A stretch of DNA of 64,000 bases from Isosphaera pallida ATCC 43644 (GTDB taxonomy: Bacteria; Planctomycetota; Planctomycetia; Isosphaerales; Isosphaeraceae): contig NC_014962.1 of the NCBI RefSeq assembly GCF_000186345.1, forward strand, positions 4,616,450-4,680,449. The letters run 5' to 3'. Below the pieces are notes generated by a model. That model searched no databases and was not told the DNA's origin. It saw only the letters and a list, made by a program, of their open reading frames with translations. Position 1 is the stretch's first letter, and each line of letters opens with the position of its first letter. Shown here in pieces: positions 20,713 through 27,230 of this stretch. The translations under genes and the position numbers were made by a program.

Positions 20713-23700
20713 ATGACCACGGACAACCCGGCTTTGGCCCAGGACGCGATCCCGGCCACGGTCCAAGTGGACCTCGGACGGATCGCGCAGGACCTTCAGA
20801 TCCGGCGCATCCAGGTCGAGAATGTCATCAAGTTGCTGGACGACGGCAACACGGTGCCCTTCATCACCCGCTATCGCAAAGAGCTCACCGGCGGGCTCGA
20901 CGAGCGAGTAATTCGGGAGATTCAATCCCGCGTTGCCAAAGCGCGGGAACTGGCTGAGCGGAAGGAAACGATCCTCAAGTCGATCGAGAGTCAGGGCAAA
21001 CTGACCGCGGAGCTCGCCGCCGCCATCCGCGGGGCGGACAACGCCAAGCGCCTTGAAGACCTCTACCTGCCCTTCAAACCCAAGCGTCGCACCAAGGCGA
21101 CCGAGGCGATCGACAAAGGGTTGCTCCCTCTGGCCGAGGCGATCTGGAACGACTCCGACGAGGCCGTTGATCTCGCCGCCTTCGCCGCGCGGTTCGTCTC
21201 GCCCCCCGAACCGGAGGAGGCGACCGCCGAGCCGCCTCCCGCCGAGACCTCGGCAGAAGCCGGCTCGCCCGAACCACCCGCCGTTGAGTCTGCGTCGGCT
21301 CCGACAGCCCTCCCCGCTACCGACTCCGCTGAATCATCGGGGACCGACTCAGCCCCCGCCGCCCCGATCGAGTCGCCTGCCGCCTCAACCCCGTCTGAAG
21401 CCGCGGCCGCCCCCGATTCCCACCCCGCCGAAGCCGAAGCCGCAACCGCGGCACGGCCTCGCGGCAAGGCGGCCAAAACCCGGGTCGATTCCGTCGAGGC
21501 CGCCCTGGAGGGAGCCGGCCACATCCTGGCCGAACGCTTCTCGGAAACCGCCGGATTGCGAGACGCGATCCGCAAAGTCCTCTGGAGCTCGGCCCGCCTG
21601 GTCGCCAGCCGCGCCGACAACGTCCCCGAAGAAAAAGCCAAGGATCACCGCGACTACTTTGAGTTCTCCGAAGAACTCCATCACGTTCCCCCCCACCGCG
21701 TTCTGGCGGTCAATCGAGGCGAACGTGAAAACGTGCTTAAAACTCGGATCGAAGTCGATCGCGCCGCGGTCGAAGCCGCGGCTGTCCCCTTCATCCCCCC
21801 TGGCGCGGGCGAAGGAGGAAGTCATCGCCACGCAGAATGGCTCCGCCAAGTGCTCAACGACAGCCTGGATCGTCTCATCCTCCCCTCCCTGGAACGCGAG
21901 GCGCGACGCGATTTGACCGAAACGGCCGAACGGCACGCCGTCGAGGTGTTCGCCCGCAACCTGCGGAGCCTATTGCTTCAGCCGCCGATCACCAACCAGA
22001 CGGTGCTGGCGATCGATCCGGGCTTCCGCTCCGGTTGCAAGGTGGCCGTGCTGGATCCCCACGGCGTTCTGCTGGAACATACGGTGATTTATCCCCATCC
22101 GCCTCAAAACCGCCGTTCCGAAGCCAAGCTTCAACTCAAAGACCTGATCGCCAAGCACCAAGTTTCGGTCGTGGCCATTGGCAACGGCACCGCCTGTCGC
22201 GAGACCGAGGAGGTGATCGCCGAGATCATCGCCGAGGGGACGTTCTTCCAAGAAAACCCTGGAGTCCCCTACCCCTGGACTCCGCCCGCCGACGCTACGA
22301 CGCCCTCCTCGTCCTCCGAGACCGCCTTGAGCGAATCGGTCGCATCCCAACCCTCCGAAACGCCAGTGGCGGCGGTCGAAGCCGCGACCACCAACGTCGC
22401 CGAGTCTGCCTCCGCTCCGTCGGAGTCCCAAACGCCGAGCGGCAACGAATCGTCAATCGCCCCGATCGCCGGCGGTGCTCCGACCGACGAGACGGAAACC
22501 GAATCCCTCACCGCTTCAGCGACCGCATCCTCCTCCGACCCTCCCTCAGAGCCAGAAGCCCCGTCGCAGGCTCCACCCACCCTCGCTGTCGCGGAGGAAT
22601 CCCAGACGCCCGACCAAGCCGACGCCTCCTCACCTCCCCCTCAACCCCCCTCGCAGCCAGAAGCCAACCGAGCCGAGTCGGCACCCGCCCCAGTTGAAGC
22701 GGCGGTTGGTGAACCGGGCGAAGCGTCGAACCCCACGCCAGAGCCAGTTGAAGCGGCGGTTGGTGAACCGGGCGAAGCGTCGAACCTCACGCCAGAGCCA
22801 GTTGAAGCGGCGGTTGGTGAACCGGGCGAAGCGTCGAACCCCACGCCAGAGCCAGTTGAAGCGCGCGCGGCGTCCAGTTCCACGCCGTCCGAACCCCAGG
22901 AAACGGCACCCGCCCGCTCCGGCGGACCCAAAGGTCCACGTGTTCCTAAGCGCGGCGGGCCCAGCGGTGTTCGAGGGGAGCGTGGTCCGCGTCCCAAGCC
23001 GGTGGTGACGCCTCCCGAACCGCACCCAGCCGATCCACTGCTTGCCAAGCTCTCCTACCTGATCGTCAACGAGGCTGGAGCCAGCGTCTATTCGACGAGC
23101 CCGACTGGACGCGAGGAGTTCCCCGACCTGGATGCGACCACCCGTGGCACGATTTCAATTGGTCGCCGATTGCAGGATCCGCTATCGGAACTTGTGAAGA
23201 TCGAGCCGCAACATATCGGTGTCGGGCTGTATCAGCACGATGTCCAGGCTAAGCATTTGCGGGATTCGCTGGACAGCGTGGTTGAAAGCTGCGTCAACTT
23301 CGTGGGCGTGGATCTTAACACCGCGAGCATCCCACTGCTCAAGCACGTCTCGGGCTTGAACTCGGTTCGGGCGCGTAACATTTTCGAGTATCGCCGGACT
23401 CATGGTCCGTTCCGCAACCGTCGTCAGCTGCTGGAGGTCGAGGGGATCGGCGAGGCCACTTTCGTGCAGGCTGCCGGCTTCCTCAAGATCCGTGACGGCG
23501 ACCATCCATTCGACCGCACCTGGATTCACCCCGAAAGCTACGAGGCCGCCACCAAGCTGCTGGAGATGTTGGGATACACCCCCGACGTGGTGCTGGATCG
23601 GGACAAGACCGAGGAGCTGCGCCACAAGCTTAACCAACTCGACTTGGCCGAGACGGCCAAGACCCTGGGCATCGGCGAGCCAACCCTGGACGACATTTGC

Positions 23701-24660
23701 CGCTCGCTCGCCCGCCCCGACCGCGACCCGCGCGACGAGTTGCCTAAGCCAATCTTCAAAAAAGGCGTGCTCAAACTTGAGGACTTGTCGGAAGGCATGG
23801 AACTCAAGGGGACGGTCCTCAACGTGGTGGACTTCGGCGCGTTTGTAGACATTGGTTTGAAGGACTCGGGGCTGGTCCACATCAGCCAGTTAGCCAATCG
23901 CTACATCAAGAGTCCCCATGACGTGGTGTCGGTGGGCGACGTGGTGACGGTCTGGGTGATGGCGGTGGATCACGACCGCAAGCGGGTCTCGCTGACGATG
24001 GTCAAGCCAGGTTCGGAGCGTCCCCGTGGTGGTCGTCGCGGCGAAAGCGGCGGCGAGGCAGGGGAACGGGAACCCGGCTCTCGCGGTGGACCACGGGAAC
24101 GTCCCGCCCGCCCGGCGGGGGTAGGACGTGGTCTCGCGGGGCCCCGACGTGAGGGAGGTGGTCCCCCGCTACGCCCGACCCGGCCTGCAACCGCGCCACC
24201 CGCCGCGGCTCAGGAAGCAGCAGCTCCAACGGCTACGGTGCCGGCACCGGCCGCGGCTCCACCGCCCCGCACCGATCGCAACGCGGCTCCCCCCACTCGT
24301 CCCGGCGGCGGCTCCTCCCGTTTTGGCATTGGCGGTCCAGGCCGTAGTCCAGGCGGGCCAGGACGTCCTGGCGGGGGTGGCGGGCCGGGAGGACCACGGC
24401 GCGACCGCAACGACATCAAGCGCACTGAGTTGCCCCTGTCCTCCATTCCCAAACTGCCGTTGCCCCCAGGCAAAGGCAACAAAGGCGGCACTAGCTCCAA
24501 GTCGTCGAGTGGCGACACCTTCCACAGCTTCGGGCAACTCAAAGCCCTCTTCGAATCGCCGCCCGAGTCGCAACCTCCCCCTACCCCACCCCAGTCGCCG
24601 TCCTCCAGTGAAGAAACGAACGAGACCTCAGGATCCGACTCCGGCTCCTCGTCGCGATGA
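20713..24660 (+). CDS. tex: Tex-family S1 RNA-binding protein with large low-complexity inserts
   Basis: 1315 residues against the usual 720-800. The family core is present in order: Tex N-terminal domain (VIKLLDDGNTVPFITRYRKE, near residues 35-60), the RNase H-like/YqgF domain (LAIDPGFRSGCKVAVLD near residue 430), HhH motifs (GLNSVRARNIFEYRRTHGPF) and an S1 domain (GTVLNVVDFGAFVDIG...SGLVHISQLA, residues about 1030-1095). Two inserts interrupt it: about 95 residues rich in P/E/A/S near residues 160-255, and about 260 residues inside the YqgF domain (roughly 515-775). A further Gly/Pro/Arg-rich tail of about 220 residues follows S1. Tex acts in transcription and RNA turnover. The core residues look intact, so function is probably kept. 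The ATG at 20713 is chosen because it matches the family N-terminus. Confidence 0.9.
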   Translation: MTTDNPALAQDAIPATVQVDLGRIAQDLQIRRIQVENVIKLLDDGNTVPFITRYRKELTGGLDERVIREIQSRVAKARELAERKETILKSIESQGKLTAELAAAIRGADNAKRLEDLYLPFKPKRRTKATEAIDKGLLPLAEAIWNDSDEAVDLAAFAARFVSPPEPEEATAEPPPAETSAEAGSPEPPAVESASAPTALPATDSAESSGTDSAPAAPIESPAASTPSEAAAAPDSHPAEAEAATAARPRGKAAKTRVDSVEAALEGAGHILAERFSETAGLRDAIRKVLWSSARLVASRADNVPEEKAKDHRDYFEFSEELHHVPPHRVLAVNRGERENVLKTRIEVDRAAVEAAAVPFIPPGAGEGGSHRHAEWLRQVLNDSLDRLILPSLEREARRDLTETAERHAVEVFARNLRSLLLQPPITNQTVLAIDPGFRSGCKVAVLDPHGVLLEHTVIYPHPPQNRRSEAKLQLKDLIAKHQVSVVAIGNGTACRETEEVIAEIIAEGTFFQENPGVPYPWTPPADATTPSSSSETALSESVASQPSETPVAAVEAATTNVAESASAPSESQTPSGNESSIAPIAGGAPTDETETESLTASATASSSDPPSEPEAPSQAPPTLAVAEESQTPDQADASSPPPQPPSQPEANRAESAPAPVEAAVGEPGEASNPTPEPVEAAVGEPGEASNLTPEPVEAAVGEPGEASNPTPEPVEARAASSSTPSEPQETAPARSGGPKGPRVPKRGGPSGVRGERGPRPKPVVTPPEPHPADPLLAKLSYLIVNEAGASVYSTSPTGREEFPDLDATTRGTISIGRRLQDPLSELVKIEPQHIGVGLYQHDVQAKHLRDSLDSVVESCVNFVGVDLNTASIPLLKHVSGLNSVRARNIFEYRRTHGPFRNRRQLLEVEGIGEATFVQAAGFLKIRDGDHPFDRTWIHPESYEAATKLLEMLGYTPDVVLDRDKTEELRHKLNQLDLAETAKTLGIGEPTLDDICRSLARPDRDPRDELPKPIFKKGVLKLEDLSEGMELKGTVLNVVDFGAFVDIGLKDSGLVHISQLANRYIKSPHDVVSVGDVVTVWVMAVDHDRKRVSLTMVKPGSERPRGGRRGESGGEAGEREPGSRGGPRERPARPAGVGRGLAGPRREGGGPPLRPTRPATAPPAAAQEAAAPTATVPAPAAAPPPRTDRNAAPPTRPGGGSSRFGIGGPGRSPGGPGRPGGGGGPGGPRRDRNDIKRTELPLSSIPKLPLPPGKGNKGGTSSKSSSGDTFHSFGQLKALFESPPESQPPPTPPQSPSSSEETNETSGSDSGSSSR
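22690..22860 (+). repeat. Three 54-bp tandem repeats plus a partial in the tex insert
   Basis: Units at 22690-22743, 22744-22797 and 22798-22851, followed by the first nine bases of a fourth. Each encodes PVEAAVGEPGEASNPTPE or a one-residue variant. The near identity of copies shows recent expansion inside the insert of the YqgF domain. Confidence 0.9.
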
Positions 24661-24966: not shown

Positions 24967-26241
24967 ATGTGGCGGTTCGCCTGGAGGAACCTCTTGACCC
25001 GTCCCCTTCGCACAATGTTGGGACTGGTCGGACTGGCGATGCCGATTGTGGGGTTCATTGGGCTGTTCAGCATTTCCTATGGAATGCGCAACCTCGTGGG
25101 TTCGACTCTGGACCAAATTCAGGGGTTGATGGTCCAGCGTGCTAATGTGCTGAGTCCGGTCTTCAGTGACCTGCCGGCCGATTTCGCCGAGACTATTCGA
25201 CGGCTGCCGGGGATCCGAGGCGTCGCGCCTGAGGTTTGGGGTCTGGCTCCCGAGGTCGAGGGGGAATCGACCTTCGGGCGGGCGATTGCCGCGGCGGTGG
25301 GGTCCGGGTTGTTGAACCGCGATGGTTCCAACTCCGGGATCAGTCGCCGTTCTCCCTTCGACGCGCCGGTGATCTCCGGCCAGGACATTGCGGCTCACTT
25401 GGCGTTGAAAACCGCCGTCTATCCTAAGAACATGTTGCCCCCGGATCAAGGCGGCGGGCGGTTTCTCGCGCCCTCTGACGCGGGTACCAATCGGATCGTT
25501 ATCAGTAAGAAAATTGCCACCGACTATCCCCGCCCCGACCAAACCCCCCGTCAGGTGGGGGATACCCTGCGAATCGGCCGGGAGTCGTTCGAGATCGTGG
25601 GGATCTACGAATGCAAGTCGCCGCTGTTGGATGTCGTGATCATCATGGATATCGACACGGCGCGGCGGGCCCTAACCAAATCCAAGGACATGGTGTCCAG
25701 CATCTACGTCGAGGGGAACGACCCGGCGGGCAACGCCGCGCTGGCGGCGGCGATCGAAGCGGCGGCGGCGGAGCGGGGGATCTCGGTCGAGGCCCGCAGC
25801 ATGAACGACTTTCTGGGAATCTTCGCCACCCTCATGGCCGACTTCGACCTGTTCCTGCTGGGAATCGTCGGCCTGGCCCTCGCGGTGGGAGTGGTGGGGA
25901 TCGTCAACACCATGCTCATGTCCACTACCGAACGGTTTTCCGAGTTCGGCGTGTTGCGGACCAATGGCTGGTCGCGTGGCGACGTGATGTTGCTGGTGAC
26001 CGCCGAGAGCGGCTATCTTGGTCTCTTGGCGGGGGTGTTCGGCGCGACGTTAGCCGTCCTGGGGATCGTGGTGGTCAACCAGTTCATCGACAACGGGTTG
26101 CAACTTTCCATCCCTCCCATTCTGGTGGCACTCTCGGTGGTGGTCGCGGTGGTGGTGGCAATCCTAGGCGGGCTTTATCCCGCCGCCAAAGCCGCTTGGA
26201 TGGCTCCGATGGAGGCAATCCGTTTGGGGGGGGCGCGGTGA
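24967..26241 (+). CDS. ABC transporter permease, MacB/FtsX type
   Basis: 424 residues. The topology is typical of the MacB/LolC family: one N-terminal membrane helix (LRTMLGLVGLAMPIVGFIGL), a large extracytoplasmic domain of about 240 residues, then three C-terminal helices (LFLLGIVGLALAVGVVGIVN, a middle one near GYLGLLAGVFGATLAVLG, and ILVALSVVVAVVVAILGG). The cytoplasmic loop MSTTERFSEFGVLRTNGWSR is the usual coupling segment. It is followed by its ATPase after about 200 bp. No MacA-like adaptor or TolC is near, so the exported substrate (peptide, lipoprotein or drug) is unknown. Confidence 0.85.
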   Translation: MWRFAWRNLLTRPLRTMLGLVGLAMPIVGFIGLFSISYGMRNLVGSTLDQIQGLMVQRANVLSPVFSDLPADFAETIRRLPGIRGVAPEVWGLAPEVEGESTFGRAIAAAVGSGLLNRDGSNSGISRRSPFDAPVISGQDIAAHLALKTAVYPKNMLPPDQGGGRFLAPSDAGTNRIVISKKIATDYPRPDQTPRQVGDTLRIGRESFEIVGIYECKSPLLDVVIIMDIDTARRALTKSKDMVSSIYVEGNDPAGNAALAAAIEAAAAERGISVEARSMNDFLGIFATLMADFDLFLLGIVGLALAVGVVGIVNTMLMSTTERFSEFGVLRTNGWSRGDVMLLVTAESGYLGLLAGVFGATLAVLGIVVVNQFIDNGLQLSIPPILVALSVVVAVVVAILGGLYPAAKAAWMAPMEAIRLGGAR

Positions 26242-26444
26242 ACGGCGCGGTGATCCCGGCGGGATTTTGGAACGAAACGAGTTATGATGAGGCCAAACGC
26301 AACCCCGAGTTCCGCCCGACGTGACCACCTTCCCGGCTACCCCGCTGTTGGGAGGGGAAAGGTGGTCTCCTTCGAACGATCGTCCCATCCCTCTCCCACT
26401 CCCTCTCAAGGTGTTCCCGCAGCCAAGCGAAGCGAGGCCGACGC

Positions 26445-27230
26445 ATGATTGAGGTGAACGACGTGACCAAGTCGTTCCGAAGCGGCGAGCAAACGGTCGA
26501 GGCGCTGCGCGGGGTGAGTTTCGTGGTTCCGCAGGGGCGGTTCGCCTTCATCGTGGGGCCGTCGGGTTCGGGCAAAAGCACCCTGCTCTATATGTTGGGA
26601 GCGTTGGACCGTCCCACGACCGGCACCATTCGAGTTGAGGGCCGCAATCTGGCCACGATGACCGAACGGGAGTGCAACCGTTACCGGCGCGATCGCATCG
26701 GGTTTATCTTCCAGTCGTTCAATCTCATTTCCAACCTCTCCGCGGTCGAGAATGTGTTGACCCCTTATCTTCCCCGGGGGATCAATGAGTCGTTGCGAAC
26801 TAAAGCGGTTGAGTTGTTGAACCGTCTCAATCTAGGCCATCGGATCAACCACCGCCCTTATCAACTCTCGGGCGGCGAGCAACAGCGGGTTGCGATCGCA
26901 CGGGCGTTGATCAAGGATCCGGTGCTGTTGCTGGGCGACGAACCGACCGGGGAACTTGACAGCAAGACTGGCGACGAGATTTATTCGATCCTCCGCGCCT
27001 TGACCGCCGAGCGTGGAACCACCATGGTGATTGTGACTCACGACCGCCGTTTCATTCAACCCGAAGATCTGGTGCTGGAGATCCGCGACGGTCGGTTGGT
27101 GGACGCTCCTTGCCTTTCAGCACCCCACGACGGCCTCCCGCTCCCAGTCGATTCGCTCAGCCAATCCGCCGTCCAGGTTGACGCCGCAGCGTCAGTGGAA
27201 ACGACCCCCTCAGTGGCCAACGAAGGTTGA
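26445..27230 (+). CDS. ABC transporter ATP-binding protein, MacB/LolD type
   Basis: 261 residues. Walker A is GPSGSGKST (residues 38-46), the Q-loop lies in [19 protein letters not shown], the signature is [15 protein letters not shown], Walker B is [14 protein letters not shown] and the switch His is in VIVTHDRR. This is the standard MacB/LolD ATPase. The last 40 residues form a variable Pro/Ser-rich tail. It pairs with the permease just upstream. Confidence 0.92.

Follow-up and report, generated by a model that had tools for sequence, protein, structure and literature searches.

What is the role of a long, acidic and disorder-prone chain inserted into a folded domain of a nucleic-acid-binding protein, and how old is it? 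This question is raised by the tex gene of the planctomycete Isosphaera pallida ATCC 43644, which occupies, as a single open frame of 1315 codons and a stop with the Pfam domains of Tex, positions 20713–24660 on the plus strand (as do all its features given below) of a 64,000-nucleotide stretch of the genome (NC_014962.1, positions 4,616,450 to 4,680,449), here called the window. The YqgF domain of the encoded protein is interrupted by a net acidic insert that is found in every Tex identified in the family Isosphaeraceae and, as judged from comparison of the family genes, is translated and constrained. We tentatively propose that this A/P/E/S/T-rich chain is an acidic shield that limits non-specific contacts with nucleic acids.

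The core of the protein is that of an ordinary Tex, with all domains detected by Pfam in the Tex order: Tex_N (PF09371, residues 23–92, positions 20779–20988, E 2.9e-28), the central region (PF22706, residues 255–413, 21475–21951, E 4.5e-32), YqgF (PF16921, Tex_YqgF), HHH_3 (residues 861–924) and HHH_9 (residues 931–1007), together at 23293–23733, and the S1 RNA-binding domain (PF00575, residues 1027–1096, 23791–24000, E 3.1e-18). The YqgF match is split around the insert into a first part at residues 430–508 (22000–22236, profile positions 2–80) and a second part at 23047–23175 (profile positions 84–126). The Tex of Pseudomonas aeruginosa (Tex/YhgF, PA5201, PDB 3bzc), which has the same Pfam domains in the same order, matches the protein with E 2.5e-169 in a phmmer comparison, and the alignment is interrupted at query positions 163/260 and 507/779, i.e., at both inserts. 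The I. pallida protein differs from it in having the two internal disorder-prone inserts and a tail of ~216 residues (1315 vs 785 aa). A preliminary description of this gene as a tex with two inserts, one of them within YqgF, intact core motifs and an open frame is thus confirmed; its estimate of nearly twice the family length amounts to 1.7 times P. aeruginosa Tex, but 1315 aa is ordinary within the own family, where stop-to-stop Tex frames uncut by contig ends span 1084–1524 aa. The known roles of Tex are sparse; nucleic-acid binding (in P. aeruginosa) and repression of genes have been reported (PMC13340108).

The smaller insert (insert 1; residues ~164–254, positions 21202–21474), delimited by the 3bzc alignment and composition, has a net charge of -13 and consists to 89% of A, E, G, P, S and T. 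The larger one (insert 2; residues ~509–778, 22237–23046, net charge -29), delimited in addition by the Pfam split, separates a helix of YqgF from the strand that follows it, the two being placed at residues 496–508 and 782–784, respectively, by a low-confidence predicted model (residues 1–1110, four-row alignment, mean pLDDT 50.5, pTM 0.32). It begins not directly after the GNGTACRETEE motif, as first described, but ~8 residues further on, where the following helix ends. The 54-bp tandem repeat within it (22690–22863), initially taken for perfect, is nearly so, with 3.2 in-frame copies at 98% matches, each encoding an 18-residue unit, PVEAAVGEPGEASN(P/L)TPE. Insert 2 closes with a basic, proline-rich end (residues ~735–762, 22915–22998).

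The two inserts have strikingly different distributions. In a sample of 59 genomes including the source genome, 37 belong to the Isosphaeraceae family, and 36 of these have a Tex match, the sole exception being an 89% complete genome (G035). Each of the 36 has a divided YqgF match whose second piece begins at profile positions 81–85, and the alignment places an insert at the same YqgF loop (reference site 404) in all 36 Tex rows, from 21 genera. In the 33 rows that could be measured by pattern (it failed for L040, L041 and L057), the insert is 172–395 aa long (median 262), and the insert body is acidic in all 33, with a median net charge of -0.18 per residue. Insert 1 (site 154) is found in I. 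pallida alone among the 36 rows, the relatives including no other Isosphaera species. Alignment with other planctomycete Tex, which the preliminary description had put forward for dating the inserts, therefore dates them apart: given these distributions, insert 2 is, on sequence grounds, older than the known genera of the family, whereas insert 1 looks recent. In the first Tex-core tree, the nearest neighbour of the family is family f3 (94/87, not starred), whose six rows in that tree have an insert in the same loop. The picture becomes mixed when more f3 rows are added: in four additional ones the inserts are at sites 263 and 356, not 404, and at least two changes are required at site 404, such that a single origin of the site-404 insert for both families is only a possibility.

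The reading frame is open through the insert in the family Tex matches. Tandem repeats are present in 18 of the 36 family inserts, and all 43 repeat rows, overlapping ones included, have a period divisible by three. In 12 usable pairs of close relatives (out of 13, not all independent; L036/L053 yielded no dS), the rough dN/dS values are 0.14–0.52 for the insert, compared to 0.02–0.19 for the flanking core. Across the 13 pairs, the identity of the insert is 45–78% where that of the flanking core is 81–99%, and large changes in insert length are observed between close relatives.

Comparable chains occur in Tex well beyond this family. We compared 103 Tex rows (36 from the family, 60 others from the class Planctomycetia, 4 from the rest of the phylum and 3 from Bacilli; L082 of genome G054 was dropped as it missed the Tex segment thresholds); 40 additional class loci were hand-picked from the matches in 221 of the 248 class genomes, favouring long frames and unsampled families, so that the fractions are not prevalences. 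An internal insert of at least 30 residues is present in 75 of the 103 rows, and of the 88 inserts (37 from the family), 85 are net acidic. Besides site 154, five loops are used, two in the central region (sites 205 and 263), two in YqgF (356 and 404) and one in the HhH region (593), and the make-up of the inserts is alike in all five (A/E/G/P/S/T 65–76%, D+E 13–19%, F+Y+W 0.4–1.5%). The longest insert, of 690 residues and with a net charge of -93, is located in the central region of a 1667-residue Tex frame (L134, genome G358, family f7). The two YqgF sites are not filled together in any of the listed rows. In a quick tree of 74 rows (the family thinned to 12 rows; L071 and L087–L090 left out), the fewest changes are 8, 1, 3, 2 and 1 for sites 205, 263, 356, 404 and 593, respectively, which amounts to one gain or more at each site provided that the ancestor lacked inserts, as suggested by the rows from Bacilli and f2, parsimony being blind to further gains versus losses. 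Many class genomes have Tex frames of 720–900 residues, with no room for a large insert. Outside the class, 134 of 294 phylum genomes have a Tex match, in some cases with a partial YqgF match, and four of these loci were fetched. In the open-licence literature, as judged from titles and abstract openings, no description of these Tex inserts was found.

Because length, sequence and site of the inserts vary while their charge, disorder-prone make-up and scarcity of aromatic residues and arginine persist, a bulk physical role appears the most plausible. Two precedents favour a shield. In Escherichia coli, the acidic disordered C-terminal domain of Hfq is reported to curb non-specific nucleic-acid binding (PMC5606850), and acidic disordered segments known as electronegative clusters are reported to do so in Nop15 and SRSF3 (PMC8348266). 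Hfq and Tex are both bacterial RNA-binding proteins with an acidic disordered chain. By charge and composition, the Tex insert is a net-acidic disorder-prone segment of the Hfq type, docking and competition with RNA being hypothetical; in Hfq, the chain is reported to form a terminal tail whose tip is acidic, whereas in Tex it is an internal loop insert with the charge spread along it. With the electronegative clusters, Tex shares an acidic disordered segment beside RNA-binding domains, but Tex is bacterial, and its segment is an A/P-rich chain with ~17% D+E inside a folded domain.

By analogy with these systems, we propose that in Tex of this family, whose core is an ordinary Spt6-related scaffold for nucleic-acid binding, the long acidic, disorder-prone chain on the YqgF surface loop would act through its bulk properties, i.e., negative charge and size; a basic Gly/Arg tail adds a linear motif near its end. 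The chain might form an intramolecular electrostatic and entropic shield that competes with or repels non-specific nucleic acids at the basic surfaces of Tex (S1, HhH and the tail), which would sharpen binding and keep the protein soluble, with the insert length probably changing via replication slippage of the in-frame repeats.

Several observations weigh against this proposal. The acid content is diluted (D+E 17% in the inserts of the site-404 loop), which, by general knowledge, is below that of poly-D/E tracts; the structure model is poor, such that proximity of the insert to the RNA-binding surface is only hypothetical; and inserts of at least 30 residues are lacking in 28 of the 103 Tex rows. 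The part of the tail preceding its motif is equally basic without an insert (+10 to +18 in 13 insertless Tex vs a median of +14 in 55 Tex with inserts), and tail charge does not correlate with insert charge (Spearman -0.11, p 0.36, 68 rows), so that insert and tail do not co-vary as a simple shield-and-target pair; a charge balance between the two was accordingly rejected. Finally, each of the 12 usable pairs shows a higher dS for the insert than for the core, which may be a sign of imperfect alignment or of a different codon make-up, so that dN/dS might be underestimated.

A serious rival to the shield, possible although on balance unlikely, is that the inserts are tolerated, near-neutral expansions that arise by slippage in permissive surface loops, with selection keeping only the frame, solubility and surface charge. 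The fast divergence of the inserts, their shifts in length among close relatives, the tandem repeats in half of the family inserts and the variation of the insertion site among clades are all compatible with such expansions. In contrast, the presence of the insert in every family row, across 21 genera, and its consistent acidity are not readily accounted for in this manner, and neither is its standing within the source genome. Among the 335 proteins predicted in a 464-kb sample of this genome (20 stretches and the window, with gene calls made for the analysis), in which disorder-promoting stretches were delineated by a simple composition rule, not a disorder predictor, the Tex stretch of 258 residues is the longest and the only one of at least 100, the next being 95. 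Other disordered stretches are neutral on average: the 257 control stretches have a median net charge of 0.0 (46% acidic, 16% at -0.1 per residue or below), and among the 127 that are internal, acidic ones number 73, with 26 at -0.1 per residue or below. The Pfam scan of the ten next-longest stretches found three proteins without a family, one with a weak coiled-coil match only and five in which the stretch is terminal or between domains (E2 acyltransferase, a kinase-TPR protein, UvrC, matrixin and Lon). The tenth, a cytochrome c assembly protein (L114:18055-19725), has a 79-residue stretch (residues 332–411) inside a Pfam match, so that in-domain inserts are not unique to Tex, which speaks for near-neutral expansion. 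A survey reports that, of the phyla compared, Planctomycetes (represented by one organism) are the richest in proteins with long disordered regions (PMC3062596), but disorder inflation across the phylum was rejected as the sole cause given that Tex is a clear outlier in the source-genome sample.

Binding of the insert to a specific partner, such as a protein of the transcription machinery, the ribosome or the nucleoid, via short motifs, for instance in its basic, proline-rich end, appears improbable. The last 60 residues before re-entry into the domain carry a net positive charge in 30 of the 33 family members measured, with a median of +3 compared to -7.5 in shuffled inserts, and RPPKPK-like and poly-proline letters recur there; however, the basic end was not seen in the one same-loop insert of f3 that was inspected (L080), and the acidic middle had no recurring motif by eye, no motif search having been run there.

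The scenario in which Tex of this class repeatedly and independently gained a large acidic disordered arm, chemically similar at each of several loops, which would make it the bacterial equivalent of an acidic-armed Spt6, and in which this arm may help to manage basic surfaces of the nucleoid, ribosome or polymerase while a condensed chromosome is being transcribed, is quite improbable. Spt6, the eukaryotic homologue of Tex, has a homologous core (8a3y chain M matches with E 4e-17) and an acidic, disordered N-terminus; its defining feature is a tandem SH2 after S1. In Tex, the acidic chain is found in internal loops, not at the N-terminus, and scanning of the I. pallida protein yielded no SH2 family among the Pfam matches at E 0.001. 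A strict histone-chaperone role was rejected because the PF00808 histone fold was found in 0 of 58 genomes (three archaeal controls matched), HU and other basic nucleoid proteins being outside this search. If true, the scenario would make the five insertion sites a natural experiment indicating that the bulk chemistry of the arm matters and its place does not. Tex is widespread, its molecular job is poorly known, and similar acidic arms in different loops, beside armless relatives, offer natural comparisons for studying the contribution of such an arm to a nucleic-acid-binding protein.

Promotion of condensate formation by the insert, as suggested in the preliminary description, is very unlikely. 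The protein does combine long disorder-prone parts of opposite charge with RNA-binding domains, and its tail is rich in RG/GR pairs; however, same-loop inserts (n = 45) are poorer in aromatic residues and arginine than the control disordered stretches (F+Y+W 1.1% vs 2.4%, R 2.6% vs 9.4%), and the features generally linked to condensates are located in the tail, not in the insert. A better candidate would be the tail, where RG/GR pairs reach a median of 6.2 per 100 residues in 32 family members, compared to 2.3 in 13 insertless Tex (without correction for relatedness). The chance that the insert is an intein or intron that is removed, or an assembly error, is practically negligible: nothing was found in favour of it, no intein or Hint splicing domain is among the Pfam matches of the protein at E 0.001, the family frames are open with repeat periods in multiples of three, so that the broken frame or excised insert envisaged as a refutation at the outset is unsupported, and the I. 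pallida genome is reported as complete, with 109.5x and 31.2x coverage (PMC3072084).

The tail itself, first described only as disordered, is a basic Gly/Arg/Pro-rich region of ~216 aa (24010–24657, net +12) and is net basic in all 32 family members measured (that of L032 is missing at a contig end). It also harbours a sequence motif found widely among the Tex proteins of the class, approximately PLSxxxxxGxxPLR[ST]FGxLKxLW, with the core PLR[ST]FGxLKxLW, which pattern search detected in 74 of the 102 Tex besides that of the window, some insertless relatives included. The pattern missed 28 rows, comprising 7 that do not belong to the class, 4 truncated at a contig end (L032, L041, L060 and L080) and 17 class rows in which the motif is absent or too diverged. 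The I. pallida form, FHSFGQLKALF (24520–24552), is diverged and retains only the SFGQLKALF half. A profile built from 35 rows and run against 30 genomes gave 28 matches at E <=1.5e-8, in 27 genomes and at Tex loci, the extra match belonging to a further Tex fragment that lies on a different contig of G004; one genome had a non-significant match only and two had none. In these 30 genomes, the best match outside Tex had E 0.0043 (G039) and the rest 0.02 or above, and with no non-Tex match better than E 0.004, a docking motif shared with other proteins was rejected. The motif might provide a separate handle on Tex partners.

The Tex YqgF match is missing in 27 of the 248 class genomes, including G050, G052 and G264; among 20 listed class genomes without this match, 9 belong to f2 (97–100% complete) and 6 to f100 (94–96%), which are apparent losses. 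G383, G411, G471 and G520 each contain two separate Tex matches that are not split, the first in a short frame (723–741 aa) and scoring much better for YqgF, the other in a longer frame (894–1052 aa), and in G399, G409, G436, G460, G502, G511 and G513, two or three matches were counted, of which the short one was listed. From their sequences, the genomes with two matches may contain a second Tex lineage. Three Tex from the phylum outside the class (L087, L088 and L090) have long, strongly basic N-terminal extensions, with net charges of +40, +21 and +60 over 267–351 residues, given the putative starts.

In the neighbourhood of tex, the gene upstream was matched by tblastn in 1 of 35 family loci. 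Downstream (window positions 24967–27230) are a putative ABC-type permease-like gene (24967–26241) and a putative ATPase-like gene (26445–27230), both named from inspection of their translations; in tblastn comparisons with the fetched stretches, the two have relatives at 23 and 24 of the 35 loci, respectively, several of the others being short contigs.

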